From Deltaproteobacteria bacterium (GTDB taxonomy: Bacteria > Myxococcota > Polyangia > Haliangiales > Haliangiaceae), in the NCBI GenBank assembly GCA_018262455.1, contig JAGSPR010000240.1, positions 1 through 10,095 of the forward strand: 10,095 bases of DNA, written 5' to 3'. The position numbers and the translations under genes are program-made. Position 1 is the stretch's first letter; each line of letters opens with the position of its first letter. Shown piece after piece: positions 725 to 10,095 of this stretch. The notes below the pieces were generated by a model, which had not been told where the DNA came from, made no database searches, and worked only from the letters and a program-made list of their open reading frames with translations.

Positions 725-2266
725 GTGGGTTTCTGGGCCACGATTGTGTCGTACCTGTGGTTCGCGCGAACCCCGTTCCTGATCGTCGCGTACTTCGTGA
801 CCGTCGCGCTCGTGCGGCGGATCCCGAAGACCGAGCTCGAGCGCTATCACATGCGTGCAGCGGGCACGCTGATCGTCGGACACCTGGTGGCCGTCGCGAT
901 CGGCGCCGGTCAGGCCGAGGGCGGCTACGACGACACGATCGCGGAAGTCTCGGCACTCGCGTTCCAGCTGCTCGCGTTCCTGTCGCTCGGCATGACCGTC
1001 GCCTTCCGGGCACTGCTCCCGCGGATCGGCTTCACGCTGCCACGGATCATGATCGACCTGCTGACGTTCGTCGGCGTGCTGGTCATCTTCATCGTCGTGG
1101 GCAAGCGTGCGGGGTTCTCGGTCGCCGGCCTCATCACGACCAGCGCGGTGCTGACGGCCGTGATCGGCTTCTCGTTGCAGGACACGCTCGGCAACGTGAT
1201 GGGTGGCCTCTCGGTCCAGCTCGACAAGTCGATCAAGGTGGGAGACTGGGTGGCGCTCGGCCCCAACCTGCCGACCGGGAAGGTCACCGAGATCCGGTGG
1301 CGCTACACCGCGATCGAGACGCGCAACTGGGACACCGTGATCGTCCCGAACGGCACGCTGGTGAAGAGCCAGATCACGATCCTCGGCCGGCGCACCGGCG
1401 AGCCGATCCAGACCCGCCGCACGATCGACTTCTTCGTCGACTTCCGCACGCCCCCGACCGAGGTGATCACGGCCGTCGAGGAGGCGATCCGCAAGGATCC
1501 GGTCGCCAAGATGGCGCGCGAGCCCGCACCCCACGTGCTGTTCCTGGGCGTTCGCGACAGTTATGCCAACTACGTGGTTCGCTACTGGCTGACCGATCTC
1601 GCGACCGACGACCCGCCCGACAGCGCGGTCCGGACCCGGGTGTGGTTCGCGCTCCGGCGCGCGGGCATCCCGATGTCGATCCCGGCGAGCACGGTGTTCC
1701 TGACCCACGAGACCCCGGAGCGCGAGTCCCGCAAGGCGGAACAGGAGCTCGCCCAGCGGATGAATGCACTCGGCTCCGTCGATCTGTTTCGCGGCTTACC
1801 CGAGAACCTGCGCAAGGATCTCGCCGACCAGCTGGTCTACATGCCGTTCGCCGCCGGTGAAGCGGTGACGCGCGAGGGGGATCGCGACGATGGGCTCTAC
1901 ATGCTCGTCAAGGGTGAGGCCGTGGTGCGCATCGGGGCCGGCGACGATGCCCGGGAGGTTGCCTCCCTGATCCCCGGCCAGTTCTTCGGCGAGATGTCGC
2001 TGATGACCGGCGAGGCCCGGACCGCCAGCGTCGTCGCGATGACGGACGTGGTGTGCTACCGGGTCGACAAACCTGCCTTCCAGCACATCCTGCGCGAGAC
2101 CCCATCGATCGCCGACCAGATCGCGGATGTCCTGGTGACGCGACGGACCGCGCTCTCGGCCGTCCGCGACGAGCGCGATGATCTCAAGCGCAACCGGACC
2201 GAGACGGCGAAGCAGGATCTGCTCGGTCGGATCCGAGGCTTCTTCGGAATCAACGACGCCCACTAG
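725..2266 (+). CDS. MscS-family channel with C-terminal cyclic-nucleotide-binding domain (bCNG type)
   Basis: The 513-residue inner-membrane protein is predicted to be an ion or osmolyte channel with a cytoplasmic ligand-binding domain. Hydrophobic segments lie near residues 6-30, 45-64, 72-98 and 108-128. A Gly/Ala-rich pore helix typical of MscS (about 133-165, including GFSLQDTLGNVMGG) follows, then the MscS beta domain (IKVGDWVALG, VTEIRWRYTAIETR, VIVPNG) and the alpha/beta region to about 330. Residues 351-470 form a cNMP-binding domain whose phosphate-binding cassette, FGEMSLMTGEARTASV, keeps the ribose-binding Glu (423) and phosphate-binding Arg (432). The basic tail ends in RIRGFFGI. 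This architecture matches the bacterial cyclic-nucleotide-gated subgroup of MscS proteins, known for poor or absent mechanosensitivity. The GTG start is chosen because AGGA (714-717) sits 7 bases upstream and the first membrane helix begins just after it. The ligand is unknown; Thr after the cassette Arg is compatible with cAMP or cGMP. It appears to be a single-gene unit. Confidence 0.9.
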   Translation: MGFWATIVSYLWFARTPFLIVAYFVTVALVRRIPKTELERYHMRAAGTLIVGHLVAVAIGAGQAEGGYDDTIAEVSALAFQLLAFLSLGMTVAFRALLPRIGFTLPRIMIDLLTFVGVLVIFIVVGKRAGFSVAGLITTSAVLTAVIGFSLQDTLGNVMGGLSVQLDKSIKVGDWVALGPNLPTGKVTEIRWRYTAIETRNWDTVIVPNGTLVKSQITILGRRTGEPIQTRRTIDFFVDFRTPPTEVITAVEEAIRKDPVAKMAREPAPHVLFLGVRDSYANYVVRYWLTDLATDDPPDSAVRTRVWFALRRAGIPMSIPASTVFLTHETPERESRKAEQELAQRMNALGSVDLFRGLPENLRKDLADQLVYMPFAAGEAVTREGDRDDGLYMLVKGEAVVRIGAGDDAREVASLIPGQFFGEMSLMTGEARTASVVAMTDVVCYRVDKPAFQHILRETPSIADQIADVLVTRRTALSAVRDERDDLKRNRTETAKQDLLGRIRGFFGINDAH

Positions 2267-2453
2267 CCCTGGAGACACCTCCGTGGTCCGACCGTGTGCG
2301 TAGCTCGTTATGCACCTGGCGAGCTCTTACACACCCAGATGGGCGTGAGTGACTAGACCCGAGCGTCAGCGGGCGGCTCACCGGCCGCGATTTCGTGCAC
2401 TTGTCCGCGTCCAGCACCTGGCACAGCGAGTGCTCAGGAGACCACTCGCACCT

Positions 2454-2627
2454 ATGACCGATCGCGAAGCAAAGTCCCGTGCGGTGAAGATCCTCGCGAA
2501 GTCGATCTACCGGGACCTCGAATCGCAGGGATTTGACGAGAAACAGATCGTCTCGCTCGCGACCGAGCTCATCAGCGAGGTCACCAGCAAGATGTCGCGC
2601 ACGACCGAGAAACTCCAGCTCGCGTAA
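2454..2627 (+). CDS. Small conserved-looking hypothetical protein, 57 residues
   Basis: The 57-residue acidic/basic protein has no signal peptide, membrane helix or cysteine, and I do not recognise a named family. It reads as helical throughout: an N-terminal basic helix (about 5-22, with KSRAVKILAKSIYRDL), a short turn with QGFDEKQ (25-31), and a second amphipathic helix (31-47, with IVSLATELISEV). That is compatible with a two-helix hairpin or a small oligomeric adaptor. The ATG at 2454 is preferred. AGGAG (2436-2440) lies 13 bases upstream, slightly far, and the in-frame extension back to a GTG at 2349 is Arg/Pro-rich and looks untranslated. Lower GC and clean codon use from the ATG onward support a real gene. 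It sits 105 bp before gap and has no overlap with either neighbour. The GFDEKQIVSLA turn looks like a conserved motif, but this is inferred without a search. Confidence 0.72.
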   Translation: MTDREAKSRAVKILAKSIYRDLESQGFDEKQIVSLATELISEVTSKMSRTTEKLQLA

Positions 2628-2732
2628 GTGCGCCATCACGTTGCGTCGCGCTGCGGCAGTCGATCTGCACTCGTGATTCTGCGCCTGCGCTGCGGCTAGC
2701 TCTGCTGCGCGATCCGATCTAGGGTGCGCGCC

Positions 2733-3740
2733 ATGGCGAAGGTCCGACTCGGAATCAATGGCTTTGGTCGTATTGGGCGTGGCGTGGTCCGCTGCATGGC
2801 GGATCAGCTCGACGTCTTCGACCTCGTGGTGATCAACGATCTCACCGACGTGAAGACGCTCGGTCACCTGCTCAAACACGACTCGATCCACGGCAAGTTT
2901 CCCGGCACGGTCGAGATCCAGGACGGCTCGCTCGTGATCAACGGTGACAGCGTGAAGATCACCGCCGAGAAGGATCCCGCGGCGATCAAGTGGAAGGACG
3001 CCGGCGTCGACATCGTCCTCGAGTGCACGGGCAAGTTCGTCGACAAGGCCGGCGCGAGCAAGCACCTGACCGGCGGCGCCAAGAAGGTGCTGATCTCGGC
3101 GCCCGCCAAGGACCCGGACGTCACGCTGTGCATGGGGATCAACCTCGCCATGTACAAGCCGGCCGAGCACCACATCATCTCGAACGCGTCGTGCACGACG
3201 AACTGCCTCGCGCCTGTCGCGAAGGTGCTGCACGAGACGTTCGGGATCGTGACCGGGCTGATGACCACGATCCACTCGTACACGAACGATCAGCAGATCC
3301 TCGATCTGCCCCACAAGGATCTGCGACGCGCCCGCGCCGCGGCGCTCTCCATGATCCCGACCACCACCGGTGCGGCGAAGGCGCTCAAGGAAGTGCTGCC
3401 CGCGATGGCCGGCAAGCTCGACGGCATGGCGATCCGCGTGCCGACCCCCAACGTCTCGCTCGTCGATCTCACGGTGCGGCTCGAGAAGCCAGCCGATGCC
3501 AAGACCGTCAACGCGGCGCTGCGGGCCGCCGCCGAGGGCCCGCTCAAGGGCATCCTCGTCATGTCCGACGAGCCGCTGGTGTCGTGCGACTTCAACGGCG
3601 ATCGCCATAGCTCGATCGTCGACACCGCCCTCACCACCGCGCTCGGCGACATGGTGAAGGTCAGCGCCTGGTACGACAACGAGATGGGCTACTCGCAGCG
3701 CCTGTTCGACCTCGCGAAGTTCGTCTCGGAGCGCCTGTAA
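2733..3740 (+). CDS. gap: Glyceraldehyde-3-phosphate dehydrogenase, NAD-type
   Basis: The 335-residue cytoplasmic enzyme is of the usual length. It oxidises glyceraldehyde-3-phosphate to 1,3-bisphosphoglycerate with phosphate and NAD+. The Rossmann nucleotide-binding start is KVRLGINGFGRIGR, and NDLTD (residues 36-40) lies in the dinucleotide-binding region. The catalytic site is SCTTNCLAP with Cys154, and the paired His is at 181 in TTIHSYTNDQ. The LDLPHKDLRRARAAA stretch carries the Leu-Pro pair typical of NAD-dependent GapA enzymes rather than NADP-dependent GapB. The end is WYDNEMGYSQRLFDL. The ATG at 2733 is chosen over the GTG at 2724 because it begins the canonical MAKVRLGINGFG sequence and AGGG (2721-2724) lies 8 bases upstream. 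The stop codon overlaps the pgk start, so the two are translationally coupled. No -35/-10 pair is obvious upstream, although a TAGGGT box lies at 2720-2725. Confidence 0.98.
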   Translation: MAKVRLGINGFGRIGRGVVRCMADQLDVFDLVVINDLTDVKTLGHLLKHDSIHGKFPGTVEIQDGSLVINGDSVKITAEKDPAAIKWKDAGVDIVLECTGKFVDKAGASKHLTGGAKKVLISAPAKDPDVTLCMGINLAMYKPAEHHIISNASCTTNCLAPVAKVLHETFGIVTGLMTTIHSYTNDQQILDLPHKDLRRARAAALSMIPTTTGAAKALKEVLPAMAGKLDGMAIRVPTPNVSLVDLTVRLEKPADAKTVNAALRAAAEGPLKGILVMSDEPLVSCDFNGDRHSSIVDTALTTALGDMVKVSAWYDNEMGYSQRLFDLAKFVSERL

Positions 3741-4939
3741 TGGCGCTGCCCGGCGGGATCAAGCACGTCCAGGAGCTGCCGGTCGAGGGCAAGCGCGTGT
3801 TCGTGCGGGTCGACTTCAACGTCCCGCTCGACAAGGCAACCCGTCGGATCACCGACGACGCGCGGATCACCGCGACGTTGCCGACCCTGCGTCACCTGAT
3901 GGAGCGTGGCGCCCGCATCGTGCTCGGCTCGCACCTCGGCCGGCCCGACGGCCAGGTCAAGCCCGAGCTCTCGCTCGAGCCGGTCGCGGTCAAGCTCGCC
4001 GAGCTGCTCGGCATCGATGTCGTGCTCGCGGACGAGCCGGTCGGCGATGGCGCGCGCAAGGTCGTCAGCGACCTCCGCGACGGTCAGATCGCGATGCTCG
4101 AGAACCTGCGGTTCCACCCGGGCGAGGAGGCCAACGACGAGCAGCTCGCGCGGACCCTCGCGTCGTACTGCGATATCTACGTCAACGACGCGTTCGGCAC
4201 CGCCCACCGCGCCCATGCTTCGACCGCCGGGATGGTGAAGTTCGTCGGCGAGAAGGGCGCCGGCTTCGTCATGGCCAAGGAGATCGACTTCCTGTCGCGT
4301 CTGCTCGGCGAGGTCGACCGGCCCTACGTCGCGGTGCTCGGCGGCGCCAAGGTGTCCGACAAGATCGAGGTGCTCGACGCGCTGCTCGAGCGAGTCAACG
4401 CGATCGTGATCGGCGGCGCGATGGCCAACACGTTCCTCGAGGCCCAGGGCAAGAACCTCGGCAAGAGCAAGGTCGAACGCGAGAAGCTCGCGAACGCCCG
4501 CAACTTCCTCCGCAAGGCCGTCGAGAAGAACATCGCCGTGCACCTGCCGACCGATGTCATCGTCGCGACCGGGCTCGACGACGATGGATCGAAGGCGGTC
4601 ATGGTCGATGCGATCCCCGCGGAGTCGATGGCGCTCGATATCGGGCCGATGACGGTCGAGCTGTTTCGCAGGGTGCTCGGTGCCGCGCGGACGGTGTTCT
4701 GGAACGGCCCGATGGGCGTGTTCGAGAAGCCGCGATTCGCGGCGGGGACGGTCGCGGTCGCGCGCGCGCTCGCCGACAACAAGCTCGCGCTCACCGTGGT
4801 CGGCGGCGGCGATTCGGCCGCGGCGATCGCGCAGGCCGGGCTCGCCGACAAGGTCAGCCACGTGTCGACCGGCGGCGGCGCGAGCCTCGAGTTCGTGCAG
4901 GGGCTCGACCTGCCGGGCATCGCGGCGCTGCGTCCCTGA
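3740..4939 (+). CDS. pgk: Phosphoglycerate kinase
   Basis: The 399-residue cytoplasmic enzyme, of normal bacterial length, transfers phosphate from 1,3-bisphosphoglycerate to ADP, the step directly after Gap. N-domain substrate-binding motifs are FVRVDFNVP (21-29), GSHLGRP (63-69), ENLRFHPGEE (121-130) and VNDAFGTAHRAHAS. C-domain nucleotide-binding motifs are GGAKVSDK (201-208), GGAMANTF, WNGPMGVFE (321-329), GGGDSAAA (355-362) and STGGGASLEF (376-385). All the expected basic and glycine-rich elements are present, so it should be active. The ATG overlaps the gap stop codon as TAATG, and GGAG (3728-3731) sits 8 bases upstream inside gap, indicating tight co-translation. Codon use matches gap. 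After the stop, a 163-bp gap with a perfect hairpin separates it from the next gene. This suggests the gap-pgk transcript may be processed or attenuated there before the downstream genes. Confidence 0.98.
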   Translation: MALPGGIKHVQELPVEGKRVFVRVDFNVPLDKATRRITDDARITATLPTLRHLMERGARIVLGSHLGRPDGQVKPELSLEPVAVKLAELLGIDVVLADEPVGDGARKVVSDLRDGQIAMLENLRFHPGEEANDEQLARTLASYCDIYVNDAFGTAHRAHASTAGMVKFVGEKGAGFVMAKEIDFLSRLLGEVDRPYVAVLGGAKVSDKIEVLDALLERVNAIVIGGAMANTFLEAQGKNLGKSKVEREKLANARNFLRKAVEKNIAVHLPTDVIVATGLDDDGSKAVMVDAIPAESMALDIGPMTVELFRRVLGAARTVFWNGPMGVFEKPRFAAGTVAVARALADNKLALTVVGGGDSAAAIAQAGLADKVSHVSTGGGASLEFVQGLDLPGIAALRP

Positions 4940-4969
4940 TTCGACGCGACGGGGCGATGTCAGGGTCTC

Positions 4970-4999
4970 CTCGAAAATCTGAGCGATCAGATTTTCGAG
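4970..4999. repeat. Perfect 13-bp inverted repeat with GCGA loop, 30 bases after pgk
   Basis: CTCGAAAATCTGA (4970-4982) and TCAGATTTTCGAG (4987-4999) are exact reverse complements around the tetraloop GCGA, which fits the stable GNRA class when transcribed on the + strand. The element is clearly more AT-rich than its surroundings. There is no T-tract after it, and the inner stem is AT-rich, so it is a poor standard rho-independent terminator. It could be an mRNA 3'-end stabiliser for gap-pgk, a protein-binding palindrome or a dispersed intergenic repeat. No second copy is seen in this window. Confidence 0.85.
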
Positions 5000-5102
5000 C
5001 CAGCGTGACCTCCGTGGCGTGGATCGCGCACAGCGACTGAGGTGTCGGCCGCATGATCCCCGCGGGTTACCTCGCGGCACATGGCTTGAAACTGCGCTCC
5101 CC

Positions 5103-5726
5103 ATGCGCGTAGCCATCCTTGCCGTCCTCGGTCTCATCGTTGCGGATGTCTCGGTCACTCGTGCCGAGCCGCCGGGACTGGTGATCCCGGTGCCGGAGGG
5201 CAGCGACATCCAGGGCGCGCCGACGATCCTGGTCGTGATGCCCGAGGCCGCCCCGCCGACCGAAACGTCGAGCTACCGCTGGCAGCTCGTCGCGGCAGAC
5301 GCGGCCGCCGTGGGCTCGCTCGCCCTCGCCTTGCGGGACGGCAACCGGGGCAATGACTGGGGCACGCTCGGGCTTGCCACCTATGCCCTCGGCCCGCCGA
5401 TCGTCCATGCCGCCAACGGCCACGGCGGCCGTGCGCTCGGCAGCCTCACACTCCGGGTGGGGCTGCCGCTGATCGGTGGCCTGGTCGGCGCGAGCCTCGA
5501 CGCGCCCCCGAGCTGTGCACCGAACGTACAGGGCAACGACAGCTTCTGTGATGGCAGCTTCCCGGGCAACGGCCTCGCCAAGGGGCTCGCTCTCGGTGCG
5601 GTCGCCGCGATGGCCCTCGATACCTGGCTGCTCGCGCGTCCCGAGCGCAGGCCTGCCCGGGGCTGGTCGCCGAACGCATCCGCGCTTCGCGGCGGCGCCT
5701 CGTTCGGGGTCTCGGGCGCGTTCTAG
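5103..5726 (+). CDS. Hypothetical exported or membrane protein
   Basis: The function is not recognised. The 207-residue product begins with a short basic N-terminus and hydrophobic stretch (MRVAILAVLGLIVADVSVTRA), with a likely signal peptidase cleavage after Ala21. A Pro-rich segment (24-52) follows. Hydrophobic Gly/Ala-rich segments lie near 61-77, 88-101, 110-131 and 157-177, compatible with several short membrane helices. Two cysteines (138 and 149) flank a polar loop and could form a disulfide outside the cytoplasm. The YRWQLVAADAAAVGSLAL and YALGPPIVHAANGH stretches look like conserved motifs of an uncharacterised family common in myxobacteria-like genomes; this is from memory, without a search. 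The ATG at 5103 is preferred because it begins the signal peptide. The longer in-frame start at 5019 adds Arg-rich non-signal sequence. No good ribosome site is visible. It lies between pgk and the signalling gene, 48 bp before the latter. Confidence 0.75.
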   Translation: MRVAILAVLGLIVADVSVTRAEPPGLVIPVPEGSDIQGAPTILVVMPEAAPPTETSSYRWQLVAADAAAVGSLALALRDGNRGNDWGTLGLATYALGPPIVHAANGHGGRALGSLTLRVGLPLIGGLVGASLDAPPSCAPNVQGNDSFCDGSFPGNGLAKGLALGAVAAMALDTWLLARPERRPARGWSPNASALRGGASFGVSGAF

Positions 5727-5774
5727 CAGGAGCCGGGAGCGCGCGGTTCGCGGCCATCTAGCTTATGATGGGCT

Positions 5775-8597
5775 GTGTCTTCGAAGCGACTCGCGGTCTT
5801 CGATCCATCGGGTCGACTGATCGCGGATCTGGCAACGGTGGCGCAACGAGCGCGCGTCACGCTGGTCCCGATCACTCCCAAAGATCCGATCACCCGCTGC
5901 GCCGCGATCTTGATCGCTCCCGCGGTGGCCAGCGAGCTCGGGCCAGTGCCCGTGGAGGGTCCTCCGCGCTGGGTGGTAGGCGATGGGGCCAACGCCGCAC
6001 GAGTGGCCGGAGCCGCGGCGCAGGCCGGCGCAGCGGGCGTGCTGCTCGCGCCGATCTCGCAAGTCGCGCTCGAGGCCATCTCACATGACGAGCCGATCTC
6101 CCCCGACTTCGATCTCGCCAGGGCGCGCGGCCTGATCGCGACCTCGCTCATCGATCTCGCGGGTGCGGCCGCACAGACGCTGATGGCGGTCGCCGAGGGC
6201 TTCACCGCGAACGATTGCATCGTGTGGTGGCGCGATGGCAACCAGATGGCCCCGACCGCCGCGCGGCCCTCCCCCACCGATAGTTATCGCGTCGAGATCG
6301 CGAGCGCCGCACGGATCGCGGCCGCGGCCTCCGGCACGGTCATCACGAGTGGACCGAGCTCGCGCTCGGTGATCGCCGAGGCCCTGCGCTCGACGCCGAC
6401 CGAGGTCGCGGGCCTGGTCGCGGTGATCTCGGACACCGGGCGCAGGTTCTCGGCCTCGGAGCGCACCGACCTCAAGGCCATCGCGGCGCGGCTGACGCGC
6501 GAGCTGTCGTGGCTGTCGAGCCATCGCCGGCTGGTCGCCGAAGGCGAGCGCCTGCTCGCGTCGAGCCTCCACGACCCGCTGACCGGCGCGATGACCCGGG
6601 GTGCATTCGAGCAGACGATCACGCACGAGGTCGCCTCGGCGACGCGCCGCAACGAGAAGGTCACGCTCGCCTTGATCGATGTCGTCGGGCTGCGCCGGAT
6701 CAACCTGTCGCACGGCCACAAGGCGGGCGACGAGGTGCTCGCGCAGCTCGCCAACCGGATCCGCGCCACCGTGCGCGGCAACGATCCGATCGGTCGGCTC
6801 GGTGGCGACGAGCTGGCCGTGCTGCTCGTCGGCGCGCCCGAGGAGCAAGCGGTGATCGTCACCCGCAAGCTGATCGCCCGGATCCAGAACGAACCGATCA
6901 AGCTCGACGACAGCACCCACCTCGCGATCCAGATCCGCGCCATCGCGACCGAGCTCGCCCCGGGCGAGCGGAGTGGAGAGGCTGCGTTCGCGCGGTGCTA
7001 CGCGGAGCTCCGGGCGGCCCCGATCGGAGACATCCACATCGTCGCGTATGGCGATCGGCCCGGCGATGCAGATCAAGGTGAGGACACCCGATCGATGTCC
7101 GCAGGGACGGTGCTGGGCGGCACGTACCGCGTGGTGCACGAGCTGTCGCGTGGCGCGATGGGCGTCGTCTATCGCGGGGAGGACCTCGGGCTCGGACGCC
7201 CGGTCGCGATCAAGGTGTTGCGGTCGGACCTCGCGTCGGATCGCGACCTGGTCGTGCGATTCCGCGCCGAAGCCTCGATCCTCGCCTCGCTCCACCACCC
7301 GAACCTCGTCCAGGTGTTCTCGCTCGGCGAGCATGCAGGCGATGTCTACTTCGTGATGGAGCTCGTCGAGGGTCAGCCTGTCTCCGAAGTGCTGCGTGCC
7401 TCGATCGAGGCCAAGGAGTGGCTCCCGGTCGCCGCGATCGCGCAGGTCGCTCTCGAGATCGGCGACGCGCTCGATGCGATGCACGCGCTCGGCGTCATCC
7501 ATCGCGACGTCAAGCCCGCCAACATCCTGCTCGACCGCGAACGCGACCGGGCGGTGCTCGTAGATGTCGGGGTCGCGGTCAGGGCGGGGGACCAGCGCGA
7601 TGCCGCCGGCACGCCGGGGTTCGCCCCACCGGAGTCGTTTCTCGAGAGCGTCGACTCGCCGATGACCGACGTGTACGGGCTCGCTGCGACGGTCTACTGC
7701 ATGCTCACCGGGCGCCCGCCGTTCGGCTCGGGACCGGCGCCTCAGGTCGTCCACCGCCAGCTCTCCGAGCCGCTCGTCCCGCCGTCATCGGTCCGCCCCA
7801 CGCTGTCCGAGGCAGTCGATGAGGTGATCGCCAAGGCGCTGTTGCCCTCGGCCAAGAAGCGCTGGGCCTCGGCTTCGACGTTCGCGTTCGCGCTCGCCCG
7901 CGCGCTCGAGCGCTTGCCCGTGAACCGTCCCGTGACCAGCCATGGCAGCGATGATGATCCGATGAAGCAGGCCGAGGCGCTGTTCGCCCCGACCTCGGGC
8001 CTCGAGGTCGAGAACCCGCGCAGCCGGCCGAACTCGCGCGTCGTGACCGGGCAGGTTCGCGCGGCGCACCTCCGCGTGCTGTCGCGGCTGATGCAGCACC
8101 ACCTCGGAGAATCGGGGATGGCCAAGCTCATCAACGAGCGGCCCCAGCTCGCGCACATGTTCGCCAGCTCCCTCGCCCCGCTGGCCTGGATCGACCTCGC
8201 AGATCTCGTCACGGCGCTCGAGAGCGCACGGGTCAACGTCCCCAGCCAGCTCGTACCTCGCAAGGTCGGCCGCGGCACCATGAGCGCGACGTTTGCGCAG
8301 CTATTCGGCGCCGAACCGACCGAGGTCGCCGCCGAGACCGTGCTCGGCGCGCTACCCAGCTTCTGGGCGCGCTATCACGAGTGGGGTGACATCGACGTCA
8401 GCGTGCATCCCGGCATGGCCGATATCGCGCTGCGTGGCTACCCTGGTTCGATCGATGTCTGCTCGATGGTCGGTGCCGAGCTCGAGCGGATCGTCGAGCT
8501 CACCGGCGCCCATGCGGTCGGCGCGACCCACACGTCGTGCGCGTGCAACGGCGCCAGCCACTGCGAGTACCGTCTGACCTGGACGCCGGTCGCCTGA
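5775..8597 (+). CDS. Multidomain signalling protein: sensory N-terminus, GGDEF-type domain, Ser/Thr kinase, V4R-like C-terminus
   Basis: The 940-residue protein is apparently soluble, with no signal peptide or membrane helix. Residues 1-105 are an Ala-rich alpha/beta region, possibly a degenerate receiver. About 114-250 looks GAF-like and is followed by a helical linker (232-262). A GGDEF-type domain spans about 265-425: DPLTGAMTR, Asp302, Asn310, Asp319, GGDEL at 343-347, and the c-di-GMP inhibitory-site motif RGND (334-337) exactly five residues before it. A Hanks-type kinase spans about 448-714: glycine loop SRGAMGVVY, VAIK Lys480, Glu499, HRDVKPAN with Asp578 and Asn583, DVG (597-599) in place of DFG, GTPGFAPPE and Asp632. 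The last 180 residues end in a CAC-x5-C cluster and resemble a V4R or myxobacterial sensory domain. Kinase catalytic residues are all present. Cyclase activity is uncertain because Phe is Leu in the signature and the domain's end is degenerate. The GTG start has no clear Shine-Dalgarno sequence; a TATGAT box lies 5 bases before it. It sits 51 bp before tpiA. Confidence 0.9.
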   Translation: MSSKRLAVFDPSGRLIADLATVAQRARVTLVPITPKDPITRCAAILIAPAVASELGPVPVEGPPRWVVGDGANAARVAGAAAQAGAAGVLLAPISQVALEAISHDEPISPDFDLARARGLIATSLIDLAGAAAQTLMAVAEGFTANDCIVWWRDGNQMAPTAARPSPTDSYRVEIASAARIAAAASGTVITSGPSSRSVIAEALRSTPTEVAGLVAVISDTGRRFSASERTDLKAIAARLTRELSWLSSHRRLVAEGERLLASSLHDPLTGAMTRGAFEQTITHEVASATRRNEKVTLALIDVVGLRRINLSHGHKAGDEVLAQLANRIRATVRGNDPIGRLGGDELAVLLVGAPEEQAVIVTRKLIARIQNEPIKLDDSTHLAIQIRAIATELAPGERSGEAAFARCYAELRAAPIGDIHIVAYGDRPGDADQGEDTRSMSAGTVLGGTYRVVHELSRGAMGVVYRGEDLGLGRPVAIKVLRSDLASDRDLVVRFRAEASILASLHHPNLVQVFSLGEHAGDVYFVMELVEGQPVSEVLRASIEAKEWLPVAAIAQVALEIGDALDAMHALGVIHRDVKPANILLDRERDRAVLVDVGVAVRAGDQRDAAGTPGFAPPESFLESVDSPMTDVYGLAATVYCMLTGRPPFGSGPAPQVVHRQLSEPLVPPSSVRPTLSEAVDEVIAKALLPSAKKRWASASTFAFALARALERLPVNRPVTSHGSDDDPMKQAEALFAPTSGLEVENPRSRPNSRVVTGQVRAAHLRVLSRLMQHHLGESGMAKLINERPQLAHMFASSLAPLAWIDLADLVTALESARVNVPSQLVPRKVGRGTMSATFAQLFGAEPTEVAAETVLGALPSFWARYHEWGDIDVSVHPGMADIALRGYPGSIDVCSMVGAELERIVELTGAHAVGATHTSCACNGASHCEYRLTWTPVA
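7075..7097 (+). promoter_or_regulatory. Possible internal ribosome binding site and ATG start inside the signalling gene
   Basis: AAGGTGAGGA (7075-7084) precedes an in-frame ATG at 7095 by 10 bases. The site is much stronger than that at the gene's annotated GTG. Translation here would give a 500-residue product beginning MSAGTVLGGTYRVVHEL, which looks like the natural N-terminus of a stand-alone Ser/Thr kinase. It may be a working internal start or a relic of two once-separate genes. Confidence 0.4.
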
Positions 8598-8648
8598 GCT
8601 GGAGGCCGGTCCAGGCGTACTCCGCGCGCGGCGCTGCGGAAAAATGTT

Positions 8649-9422
8649 ATGTCGCTGCCCATGCGCATCCCGTTCGTGGTCGGCAATTGGAAGCTCCACA
8701 AGACGATCAGCGAGTCGGTCGCACTCGTCACCGAGCTGAAGAACCAGCTCGCTGCGATCAAGGGCGTGCACGTCGGCGTGGCTCCGACCTTCCTGTCGCT
8801 GGCCGCGGTGGCCAAGCGCCTCGAAGGCTCGCCGATCCTGACCTGCGCGCAGGACTGCTTCTGGGAGTCGTCGGGCGCGTGGACCGGCGAGGTGTCGGCA
8901 CCGATGCTCGGCGATGCCGGGGCGAGCTGGTCGATCGTCGGACACAGCGAGCGCCGCCAGTTCTTCGGTGACACGCCGGAGTCGGTCGGCAAGAAGGCGC
9001 GCGCCGTGCTCGCGGCCGGGCTCGGGGCGATCGTGTGCGTCGGCGAGTCGCTCGCCGAGCGCGATGGCGGGCGGACGCTCGCGGTGGTCGACGAACAGCT
9101 GGCCGGAGGGCTCGCGGGCATCGACGCCGCGAGCGCGGCCCGGCTCGTCATCGCGTACGAGCCGGTGTGGGCGATCGGCACCGGCCGCACCGCCACGCCC
9201 GGTCAGGCGCAGGAAGTCCACGCGCACATCCGCGGTCGGCTCGCCGAGCGGCTCGGGGCGGCGGTCGCGGACACCATCCGCATCCAGTACGGCGGCTCGG
9301 TCAAGCCGGGCAACGCGGAGGCCTTGATCGCCGAGAAAGACATCGACGGCGCCCTCGTCGGCGGCGCATCGCTCGAAGTCGCTGATTTCGTTGCGATCGT
9401 CAAGGCAGCCCGCGGCGTCTAG
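8649..9422 (+). CDS. tpiA: Triosephosphate isomerase
   Basis: The 257-residue cytoplasmic TIM-barrel enzyme, of usual length, interconverts dihydroxyacetone phosphate and glyceraldehyde-3-phosphate, feeding Gap. The active-site Lys15 is in VVGNWKLHKT, the electrophilic His99 in IVGHSERRQFFGD, and the catalytic Glu171 in IAYEPVWAIGTG, the start of the flexible loop 6 region. The phosphate-binding end is IQYGGSVKPGNA and ALVGGASL. All three catalytic residues are present. The ATG at 8649 is chosen because GGA (8638-8640) lies 8 bases upstream; the second Met, four codons later, has no ribosome site. It lies 51 bp after the signalling gene with no recognisable terminator between, so read-through is plausible. 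It is followed by secG after 44 bp. Family membership is certain; whether its main promoter is inside the signalling gene or further upstream is unknown. Confidence 0.98.
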   Translation: MSLPMRIPFVVGNWKLHKTISESVALVTELKNQLAAIKGVHVGVAPTFLSLAAVAKRLEGSPILTCAQDCFWESSGAWTGEVSAPMLGDAGASWSIVGHSERRQFFGDTPESVGKKARAVLAAGLGAIVCVGESLAERDGGRTLAVVDEQLAGGLAGIDAASAARLVIAYEPVWAIGTGRTATPGQAQEVHAHIRGRLAERLGAAVADTIRIQYGGSVKPGNAEALIAEKDIDGALVGGASLEVADFVAIVKAARGV

Positions 9423-9466: not shown

Positions 9467-10095
9467 ATGTCCACGCTGATCACGGTCCTGCACGTCATCG
9501 TGTGCCTGTTTCTGATGCTCACGGTGCTCCTGCAAAGTGGCAAGGGCGGCGGAATGGGCGCGGCCTTCGGTGGTGGTAACGCCGCCACCGTCTTCGGGGG
9601 CTCCGGCGCATCGGGCTTCCTCAAGCGGCTGACCGCCATCGCCGGCTCGATCTTCATGGTCACCTCGATGGTCCTCGCGTTCCTGTCGAGCCGAAACTCG
9701 GCCGACTCGCTCGAGAGTTTCGGCAAGAAGGAAGCCTCGATCGCCCTGGAGAAAGACAAGGCCAAGGCTGAGGTGCTCAGGGCCGCCAAGAAGGCCAAGG
9801 AAGCGGGCTCGGGCTCGGCGGGCTCGGGTTCCGCGGGTCAAGGATCCTCGTCCTCGTCGATGAGCCCCCCGACCACGGTGACGCCTGACCAGCCGGGCAC
9901 TGCCGGTTCCGCGGTCGCGCCGAGCGAGTCGCCAATCCCGAACGGCAGCGCGGCTGCGCCCGTGACGCCCACCCCGCCCAAGGCCGACACCACGCCGACG
10001 ACCACGCCCAAGGCCGACACCACGCCGACGACCACGCCCAAGGCCGACACCACGCCGACGACCACGCCCAAGGCCGACACCACGCCGACGACCAC
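9467..10095 (+). CDS. secG: Preprotein translocase subunit SecG with long low-complexity tail, 3' end outside window
   Basis: SecG is the accessory membrane subunit of the SecYEG translocon and assists SecA-driven export. The family core occupies residues 1-75: first membrane helix about 3-22, then the conserved cytoplasmic loop LLQSGKGGGMGAAFGGG with TVFGG and GFLKRLTAIAG, and a second helix about 55-73. A charged, Lys/Ala-rich probably helical linker (76-112) follows, then a Gly/Ser/Ala stretch (114-131), a Pro/Thr/Ser stretch, and from residue 172 identical ten-residue repeats KADTTPTTTP. The frame is still open at base 10095 after 209 codons, already about twice a typical SecG. By the known SecG topology both ends face the periplasm, so the tail would lie outside the cytoplasm. 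It follows tpiA by 44 bp, a common bacterial gene order. The core assignment is secure; the final length and whether the tail is full in-frame sequence are unknown. Confidence 0.93.
   Translation, partial: MSTLITVLHVIVCLFLMLTVLLQSGKGGGMGAAFGGGNAATVFGGSGASGFLKRLTAIAGSIFMVTSMVLAFLSSRNSADSLESFGKKEASIALEKDKAKAEVLRAAKKAKEAGSGSAGSGSAGQGSSSSSMSPPTTVTPDQPGTAGSAVAPSESPIPNGSAAAPVTPTPPKADTTPTTTPKADTTPTTTPKADTTPTTTPKADTTPTT
9980..10095 (+). repeat. 30-bp tandem repeat coding KADTTPTTTP, three complete units plus 26 bases
   Basis: Identical 30-base units begin at 9980, 10010, 10040 and 10070; the last is cut after 26 bases by the window edge. The unit length is a multiple of three, so copy-number change keeps the secG frame. 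The bases just before (9964-9979) look like a degenerate half unit. The perfect identity points to recent expansion by slippage or recombination. Confidence 0.97.

Follow-up and report, generated by a model that had tools for sequence, protein, structure and literature searches.

We analyzed the 10,095-nucleotide contig JAGSPR010000240.1 (hereafter the window) from a Deltaproteobacteria bacterium of the family Haliangiaceae and found that one of its genes encodes a genuine and conserved multi-sensor Ser/Thr kinase, which has been observed in only one bacterial order to date. This protein of 940 amino acids joins a GGDEF domain, the domain type of diguanylate cyclases, to a Hanks-type kinase domain, with further sensor-like domains at both ends, and its gene lies in the neighborhood of the glycolytic genes pgk and tpi. 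On balance, we favor the reading that it is a multi-sensor Hanks-type kinase in which the GGDEF domain serves as a guanine-nucleotide receptor, further domains act as additional sensors, and the substrate is a glycolytic enzyme or a carbon-flow regulator.

The original prediction, made from the letters of the window, described a single uninterrupted frame at positions 5775..8597 with a GGDEF-type domain upstream of a complete kinase. Our analysis agrees with this description in its coordinates, in the order of the domains (PF00990, E 4.3e-24, followed by PF00069, E 1.7e-38), and in the quoted motifs, all of which were found: DPLTG, RGND (from R334), GGDEL (from G343), VAIK (K480), HRDVKPAN (576-583), and GTPGF-APPE. 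The GGDEF match, on whose significance the prediction had been staked, covers residues 265-383 and scores 85.5 bits against a curated cut-off of 23.8. For comparisons, we used two sets of top-ranked matches, which are not random samples: a close set, the best 120 of 2183 relatives (68-100% identical to the window protein), and a distant set, the best 120 of 1614. In a precomputed domain table, PF00990 and PF00069 are both present in all 120 close relatives, which are 882-1035 amino acids long (900-1000 in 118 of the 120); the named ones come from Kofleriaceae, Myxococcales, and other deltaproteobacterial or Myxococcota metagenome bins. Because the listed relatives share both domains and a similar length, there is no frame error, and a frameshift or fusion artefact was ruled out. 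Residue counts refer to a census of the window protein and all 240 listed proteins (121 close members, window included, and 120 distant), and alignment A1 comprised the window protein and 40 of the 120 close proteins. For conservation statistics, one of the 241 rows was dropped for coverage and the other 240 were reduced to 72 representatives below 70% identity, only four of which stem from the close set.

Of the five domains, the kinase varies least, with a mean column entropy of 1.27 (GGDEF, 2.00). The profile match, together with the VAIK Lys, the alphaC Glu, and the HRD, DxG, and APE motifs, identifies it as Hanks-type. Residues K480, E499, H576-R-D578, K580, N583, D597, G599, and E620 are present in all 121 close members and in 119-120 of the 120 distant ones, and the best sequence matches in the PDB are PknE, PknA, and PknB (E 2e-37 to 1e-35). 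The activation-loop stretch 600-611 lacks Ser, Thr, and Tyr in 99 of the 121 close members, which makes control of the kinase by the other domains plausible. Activation-loop phosphorylation as the switch was considered as well; the loop is not decisive on this point, since most close members lack such residues yet 65/120 distant members have them.

In the GGDEF domain, the residues expected of a cyclase are largely in place, including the signature (GGDEL for GG(D/E)EF, with Leu, Ile, Val, or Met at the Phe position across the family), the metal-binding D302, and the base-binding N310 and D319, and the full fold is present in a low-confidence structure model of the whole protein. The inhibitory-site (I-site) motif RxxD lies five residues ahead of the signature (RGND-PIGRL-GGDEL). 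N310 and D319 are kept in 241/241 proteins and 72/72 representatives, ranking 2 and 6 of the 159 GGDEF columns in conservation (resampling p 0.002), and the I-site pair R334 and D337 is kept in 121/121 close members, 105/120 distant members, and 64/72 representatives (resampling p 0.016). D302, N310, D319, and D345 are invariant in the close set, where E346 is found in 119/121. Over the 72 representatives, the pair E346/416 is conserved no better than random columns (p 0.36), with E346 missing in 24. Position 416, which we take to be the phosphate-binding Lys of the C-terminal helix of cyclases (PleD K442 numbering), is Lys or Arg in 0/121 close vs 102/120 distant members; all 121 close members have Pro, Ala, Thr, or Glu there in this alignment-dependent reading. 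Remote orthologues sharing this locus keep the kinase motifs while their GGDEF domain erodes: the signature is gone in L106, its Glu is replaced by Asp in L098 and L100, and the I-site Arg is gone in L103 and L105. From these patterns, we read the GGDEF domain as serving the kinase as a nucleotide receptor, and probably not as a cyclase. The original proposal that c-di-GMP (cyclic di-GMP) binding or synthesis would control phosphorylation, or the reverse, therefore stands as far as the two domains are coupled in one polypeptide; residue conservation favors nucleotide binding, synthesis is the less likely half, and control of the kinase by the bound nucleotide may follow.

At the other end of the protein, the C-terminal domain had been described as V4R-like and possibly TIGR02265-related, a guess that fits the relatives better than the window protein. 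At E 0.01, V4R matches 15, DUF2378 4, and TIGR02265 8 of 31 C-terminal domains, and none of the three matches the window's own domain at this threshold (V4R PF02830: E 0.07-0.09 on fragments, best 13.7 bits vs a cut-off of 31, which relatives approach with up to 30.9). Fragments of relatives exceed curated cut-offs for TIGR02265 (L112, 27.5 vs 25) and DUF2378 (L111, 23.7, and L112, 22.7, vs 22.2), although in the full-length scan L111 reaches 19.9 for DUF2378 and L112 is not listed. When the C-terminal domain was searched against PDB sequences, by itself or in profile form, there was no meaningful match; the fold was found by structure only. The confident model of this domain adopts the H-NOX fold, and H-NOX proteins top both structure searches. 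The C-terminal alignment A2 comprised the window and 30 locus sequences. C896, H919, C922, and C930 match the zinc/redox site of H-NOX proteins as a putative metal site, and align with the same residues of the H-NOX protein of L145 (hhalign); at the fourth position of the site, most of the 72 representatives have His (45) or Gln (9), and 5 have Glu. As we read the alignment, the proximal heme His falls on W864 and the YxSxR motif on G888/P890/S892, whereas in 18 H-NOX proteins the proximal His, Tyr, and Arg are invariant and the Ser nearly so. Because the proximal His is replaced by W864 and YxSxR is not kept, the domain is probably heme-free and, as an H-NOX-type domain, probably serves to sense redox state or a ligand. 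W864 itself is found in 68/72 and H868 in 65/72 representatives. A locus-type sub-branch (L095, L097, L098, L100, L102) is without the Cys-His-Cys-Cys set.

The N-terminal domains give weaker evidence in the window protein itself. Neither full-length nor fragment profile searches gave a match to PF00072 or any other Pfam family in the N-terminus of the window protein, and a PDB sequence search with the N-terminal 262 residues gave no match at E 1. Response_reg matches in the relatives L113, L114, and L111 (E 7e-7 to 2e-3) are all under the cut-off, the best being L113 (E 7e-7, 29.8 bits vs 30.2), and P0121 and others are listed with PF00072 in the precomputed domain table. For the GAF domain, GAF_3 matches a fragment of the window protein under the Pfam cut-off (E 1.1e-4) and PF01590 matches the relative L111 (E 1.2e-9). 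Divergent relatives thus reveal the fuller set of Response_reg-like, GAF, GGDEF, Pkinase, and V4R/DUF2378 domains, with not every domain in every member. The full-length structure model from 41 close sequences is poor (mean predicted local distance difference test score, pLDDT, 60.4) and only its GGDEF fold and coarse secondary structure were relied on; its kinase part was unused. Hydropathy gives no clear transmembrane segment in the 940 residues (best 19-residue window 1.64, inside the receiver-like domain), and the kinase is probably located in the cytosol.

We then compared the genomic place of the gene across genomes. Of 35 genomes from the order to which the relative G001 belongs, 30 have a match at E 1e-60, as do 27/30 in its family; among the 30 matching genomes, G265 holds only a copy of the type found elsewhere in genomes and G012 only pieces. 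A draw of 235 genomes from the phylum gave just three matches, all from that order. In 24/26 assessable genomes, tpi follows on the same strand within 1 kb, and pgk lies within 1 kb upstream in 19/25 (5 of the 30 genomes for pgk and 4 for tpi were not assessable, mostly owing to contig ends). The neighborhood is kept even at 36-43% protein identity (L103, L105, L106, L111, L113). Outside the order, we sampled the loci of 30 of 57 tpi matches, two of which fell inside the order, leaving 28; in 27 of them tpi is preceded by pgk on the same strand at a distance of at most 0.5 kb (the exception is L140), with a spacing of at most 100 bases in 24 and 0.4-0.5 kb in three. These arrangements are most simply explained if pgk and tpi were once direct neighbors and the kinase gene came between them and stayed. 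Further kinases of the same kind lie elsewhere in several genomes of the order (L108, L109, L110, L112, L114; copies in G004, G014, and G266), and two such extra copies are near each other on one G004 contig. In the tree, the locus copies group together, with the relocated L108 (G004) inside the group and L109, L110, L112, and L114 outside; no single branch separates this group cleanly from the rest, and several long branches are unsure. In G019 (L007, ~1881-4802), pgk and the kinase gene are about 2.9 kb apart, and the intervening stretch contains a kinase-like piece on the opposite strand. Neither the pgk-tpi placement nor the H-NOX-type C-terminal fold had been part of the original prediction.

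Table 1. Features of the kinase gene and of its surroundings in the window.
Feature	Position	Strand	Remarks
Whole kinase gene	5775..8597	+	GTG start, 940 amino acids, uninterrupted open reading frame (ORF); receiver-like, GAF, GGDEF, kinase, H-NOX/V4R-like
Receiver-like domain, N-terminal	5775..6089	+	residues 1-105; alternating strand/helix in low-confidence model
GAF domain	6111..6509	+	residues 113-245
Long helix between GAF and GGDEF, putatively signalling-helix-like	6453..6563	+	residues 227-263; low-confidence model secondary structure
GGDEF domain	6567..7043	+	residues 265-423
RGND inhibitory-site (I-site) motif	6774..6785	+	residues 334-337; R334, D337 in 121/121 close members
GGDEL signature	6801..6815	+	residues 343-347
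Hanks-type kinase domain	7125..7868	+	residues 451-698; PF00069 E 1.7e-38
Catalytic loop HRDVKPAN	7500..7523	+	residues 576-583
DVG in DFG position	7563..7571	+	residues 597-599
C-terminal H-NOX/V4R/DUF2378-type domain	8037..8594	+	residues 755-940
Candidate zinc/redox site C896, H919, C922, C930	8460..8564	+	CHCC in 118/121 close members
Sigma-70 gene, 3' part only			first gene of the window
MscS-type channel with C-terminal cyclic-nucleotide-binding domain	725-2266	+	PF00924, PF21082, PF00027
gap (glyceraldehyde-3-phosphate dehydrogenase)	2724..3740	+	
pgk (phosphoglycerate kinase)	3740..4939	+	
Small ORF, 210 amino acids	5094-5726	+	between pgk and kinase gene
tpi (triosephosphate isomerase)	8649..9422	+	starts 51 bases past the kinase-gene stop
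secG, long low-complexity tail	9467-10095	+	

The small ORF between pgk and the kinase gene (Table 1) matches nothing in Pfam or NCBIfam, and tblastn against loci L001-L027 gave no match of at least 50 residues for it; by eye, its start resembles a signal peptide. A scan of positions 4850-8750 found no promoter-like site and one weak terminator-like site (5754-5771, between the small ORF and the kinase gene; 0.6 expected in shuffles), and co-transcription is therefore neither supported nor refuted. In the SecG tail, a 30-base tandem repeat (9971-10095; 4.2 copies, 98% match) reaches the end of the window.

From the domain order, the conserved and missing residues, the predicted folds, and the place and distribution of the gene, we infer a ligand, a direction of control, an activity, a substrate, and a cell location. 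In the favored mechanism, the kinase domain would be the output of the protein. The GGDEF domain would bind a guanine nucleotide, either c-di-GMP at the RxxD I-site or, in the base pocket, guanosine triphosphate (GTP) or an alarmone, would have lost or be losing its cyclase activity, and would pass ligand binding on to the kinase that follows it in the chain. The receiver-like and GAF domains would be additional inputs, and the heme-less H-NOX-type domain with its Cys3His site would be a redox or metal input. The kinase substrate would be a glycolytic enzyme or a carbon-flow regulator, as phosphofructokinase is the substrate of Pkn4 in Myxococcus; it is only the gene place that suggests this link, because the gene lies and has stayed in the ancestral pgk-tpi neighborhood. 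Several observations weigh against this mechanism. DVG stands in place of DFG, with V598 in 121/121 close and 114/120 distant members, and the first Gly of the Gly-rich loop is Ser in the window protein. The location of the Lys position 416 relies on the alignment of a variable stretch. D302, D345, and E346 are all retained in 119/121 close members, and a pure receptor would need none of these metal ligands or the Glu. Furthermore, 29/72 representatives retain every scored residue, Lys/Arg included, and early family members may therefore be cyclases; according to PMC3974145, degenerate sites occur in roughly one in four known cyclases, and an AGDEF cyclase is active. The Cys-His set is missing in 10/33 C-terminal domains from the loci and found in only 2/18 H-NOX proteins compared. 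Finally, 6/25 assessable genomes have no pgk in the 1 kb upstream of the gene and 2/26 no tpi downstream.

Were the GGDEF domain an active diguanylate cyclase, the kinase or its autophosphorylation state would switch c-di-GMP synthesis, and the protein would be bifunctional with two outputs. The full fold and the metal and base ligands kept in the close set favor such an enzyme, as do the stretch near 416 in the early-branching L113, which by eye is cyclase-like (ALKQAKRGR), and the Thermotoga GGDEF structures 4urs/4urg, which in the alignment are likewise without the second Asp of DxD. We nevertheless consider an active cyclase unlikely, given that all close members are without Lys or Arg at 416, that E346 is gone in a third of the representatives (24/72) while the base residues and I-site persist, and that the signature is lost or altered within the same locus. 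Still more improbable is a folded relic that is only a dimerization or spacing module, with nucleotides irrelevant to it: GAF-helix-GGDEF units dimerize in general, and L103 and L105 lose I-site residues and L106 the signature, but conservation of the base-binding residues and the I-site pair above random GGDEF columns argues against mere spacing.

Outside the GGDEF domain, the alternatives come closer to the favored mechanism. That the pgk-tpi place is incidental, the gene having landed in a strongly expressed cluster with a target unrelated to glycolysis, is quite possible and only somewhat short of evenly balanced: related kinases with this architecture occur at other sites in the genomes (L108-L110, L112, L114), pgk is not always near, and the promoter and terminator scan yields no evidence of co-transcription. 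The persistence of the neighborhood at 36-43% protein identity in the locus copies named above and the pkn4-pfk precedent (PMC2887360) argue for a functional place. For the C-terminal domain, a comparison is offered by phenol sensors of the V4R type, which employ a His and a Trp together with a structural zinc held by three Cys and a Glu (PMC10715001). A small organic ligand sensed as in the V4R domains of MopR, DmpR, and PoxR (phenols), with a structural zinc site only, is a possible although somewhat doubtful role; the V4R matches among relatives and the nearly invariant W864 and H868, which parallel the His and Trp of those sensors (PMC10715001), are consistent with it. However, both structure searches rank H-NOX proteins first, MopR, PoxR, and DmpR are not among the 50 matches listed per structure search (which leaves room for phenol sensors), and His or Gln predominates as the fourth ligand, as in zinc-binding H-NOX proteins (PMC7108781), with Glu in few representatives.

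Compared with known systems, the window protein resembles the Hanks-type kinases PknB, PknA, and PknE in its kinase domain and catalytic residues, but has no PASTA match, no clear transmembrane segment, DVG for DFG, a 600-611 stretch mostly free of Ser, Thr, and Tyr in the close set, and extra sensor domains in the chain. PopA, SgmT, and CC3396 are GGDEF-based receptors for c-di-GMP or GTP; like them, the window protein keeps the GGDEF fold, the I-site, and the base-binding residues and has probably lost catalysis, whereas it carries its output, a Ser/Thr kinase, on the same polypeptide. The view that GGDEF proteins and Ser/Thr kinases usually belong to separate pathways is fair, yet a Clostridium thermocellum protein with a kinase, six tetratricopeptide repeats, and a GGDEF domain was listed in 2005 (PMC1262709), and the fusion as such is thus already known. 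In that listing, the kinase is N-terminal, followed by the repeats, and the GGDEF domain C-terminal, whereas here GGDEF precedes the kinase and receiver-like, GAF, and H-NOX-like domains are added. The precedent for the operon logic is the pfk-pkn4 operon of Myxococcus xanthus: according to PMC2887360, its synteny is conserved in seven myxobacteria and Pkn4 phosphorylates phosphofructokinase. Both are myxobacterial Ser/Thr kinase genes beside a glycolytic gene in conserved synteny; Pkn4 sits with pfk and has a known substrate, and the likeness drawn here is one of gene place only. The Cys-His-Cys-Cys set of the C-terminal domain resembles the Cys-His/Gln-Cys-Cys ligands described for zinc-site H-NOX proteins of Shewanella oneidensis and Vibrio cholerae (PMC7108781), unlike which the window protein has W864 for the proximal His, does not keep YxSxR, and is fused to a Ser/Thr kinase. 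Some relatives resemble DUF2378, TIGR02265, and V4R proteins, with C-terminal fragments over the DUF2378 and TIGR02265 cut-offs, unlike the window's own domain, which stays under them. Among the titles and abstract openings of the open-access papers listed by our searches, we found no description of this architecture or of its pgk-tpi place.

c-di-GMP acts through many receptors. For a direct link within one chain from c-di-GMP to a Hanks-type kinase, our literature search found only the one domain listing mentioned above (PMC1262709). If the GGDEF domain gates the kinase, a single molecule would unite the two large signalling systems that these kinase-rich bacteria possess, and the heme-less H-NOX-type domain, if real as a sensor, would extend redox-zinc sensing to the control of Ser/Thr kinases. 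The gene place makes the question of the target testable, as it offers three candidate substrates, Gap, Pgk, and Tpi. In its most far-reaching form, which we hold to be rather unlikely as a whole, c-di-GMP (or GTP or the alarmones (p)ppGpp) would gate the kinase directly via the GGDEF domain it carries, oxidation of the heme-less H-NOX zinc site would gate it as well, and the kinase would phosphorylate the glycolytic enzymes of its own cluster. If true, one protein would tie a second messenger, the redox state, and central carbon flow together across a whole bacterial order.

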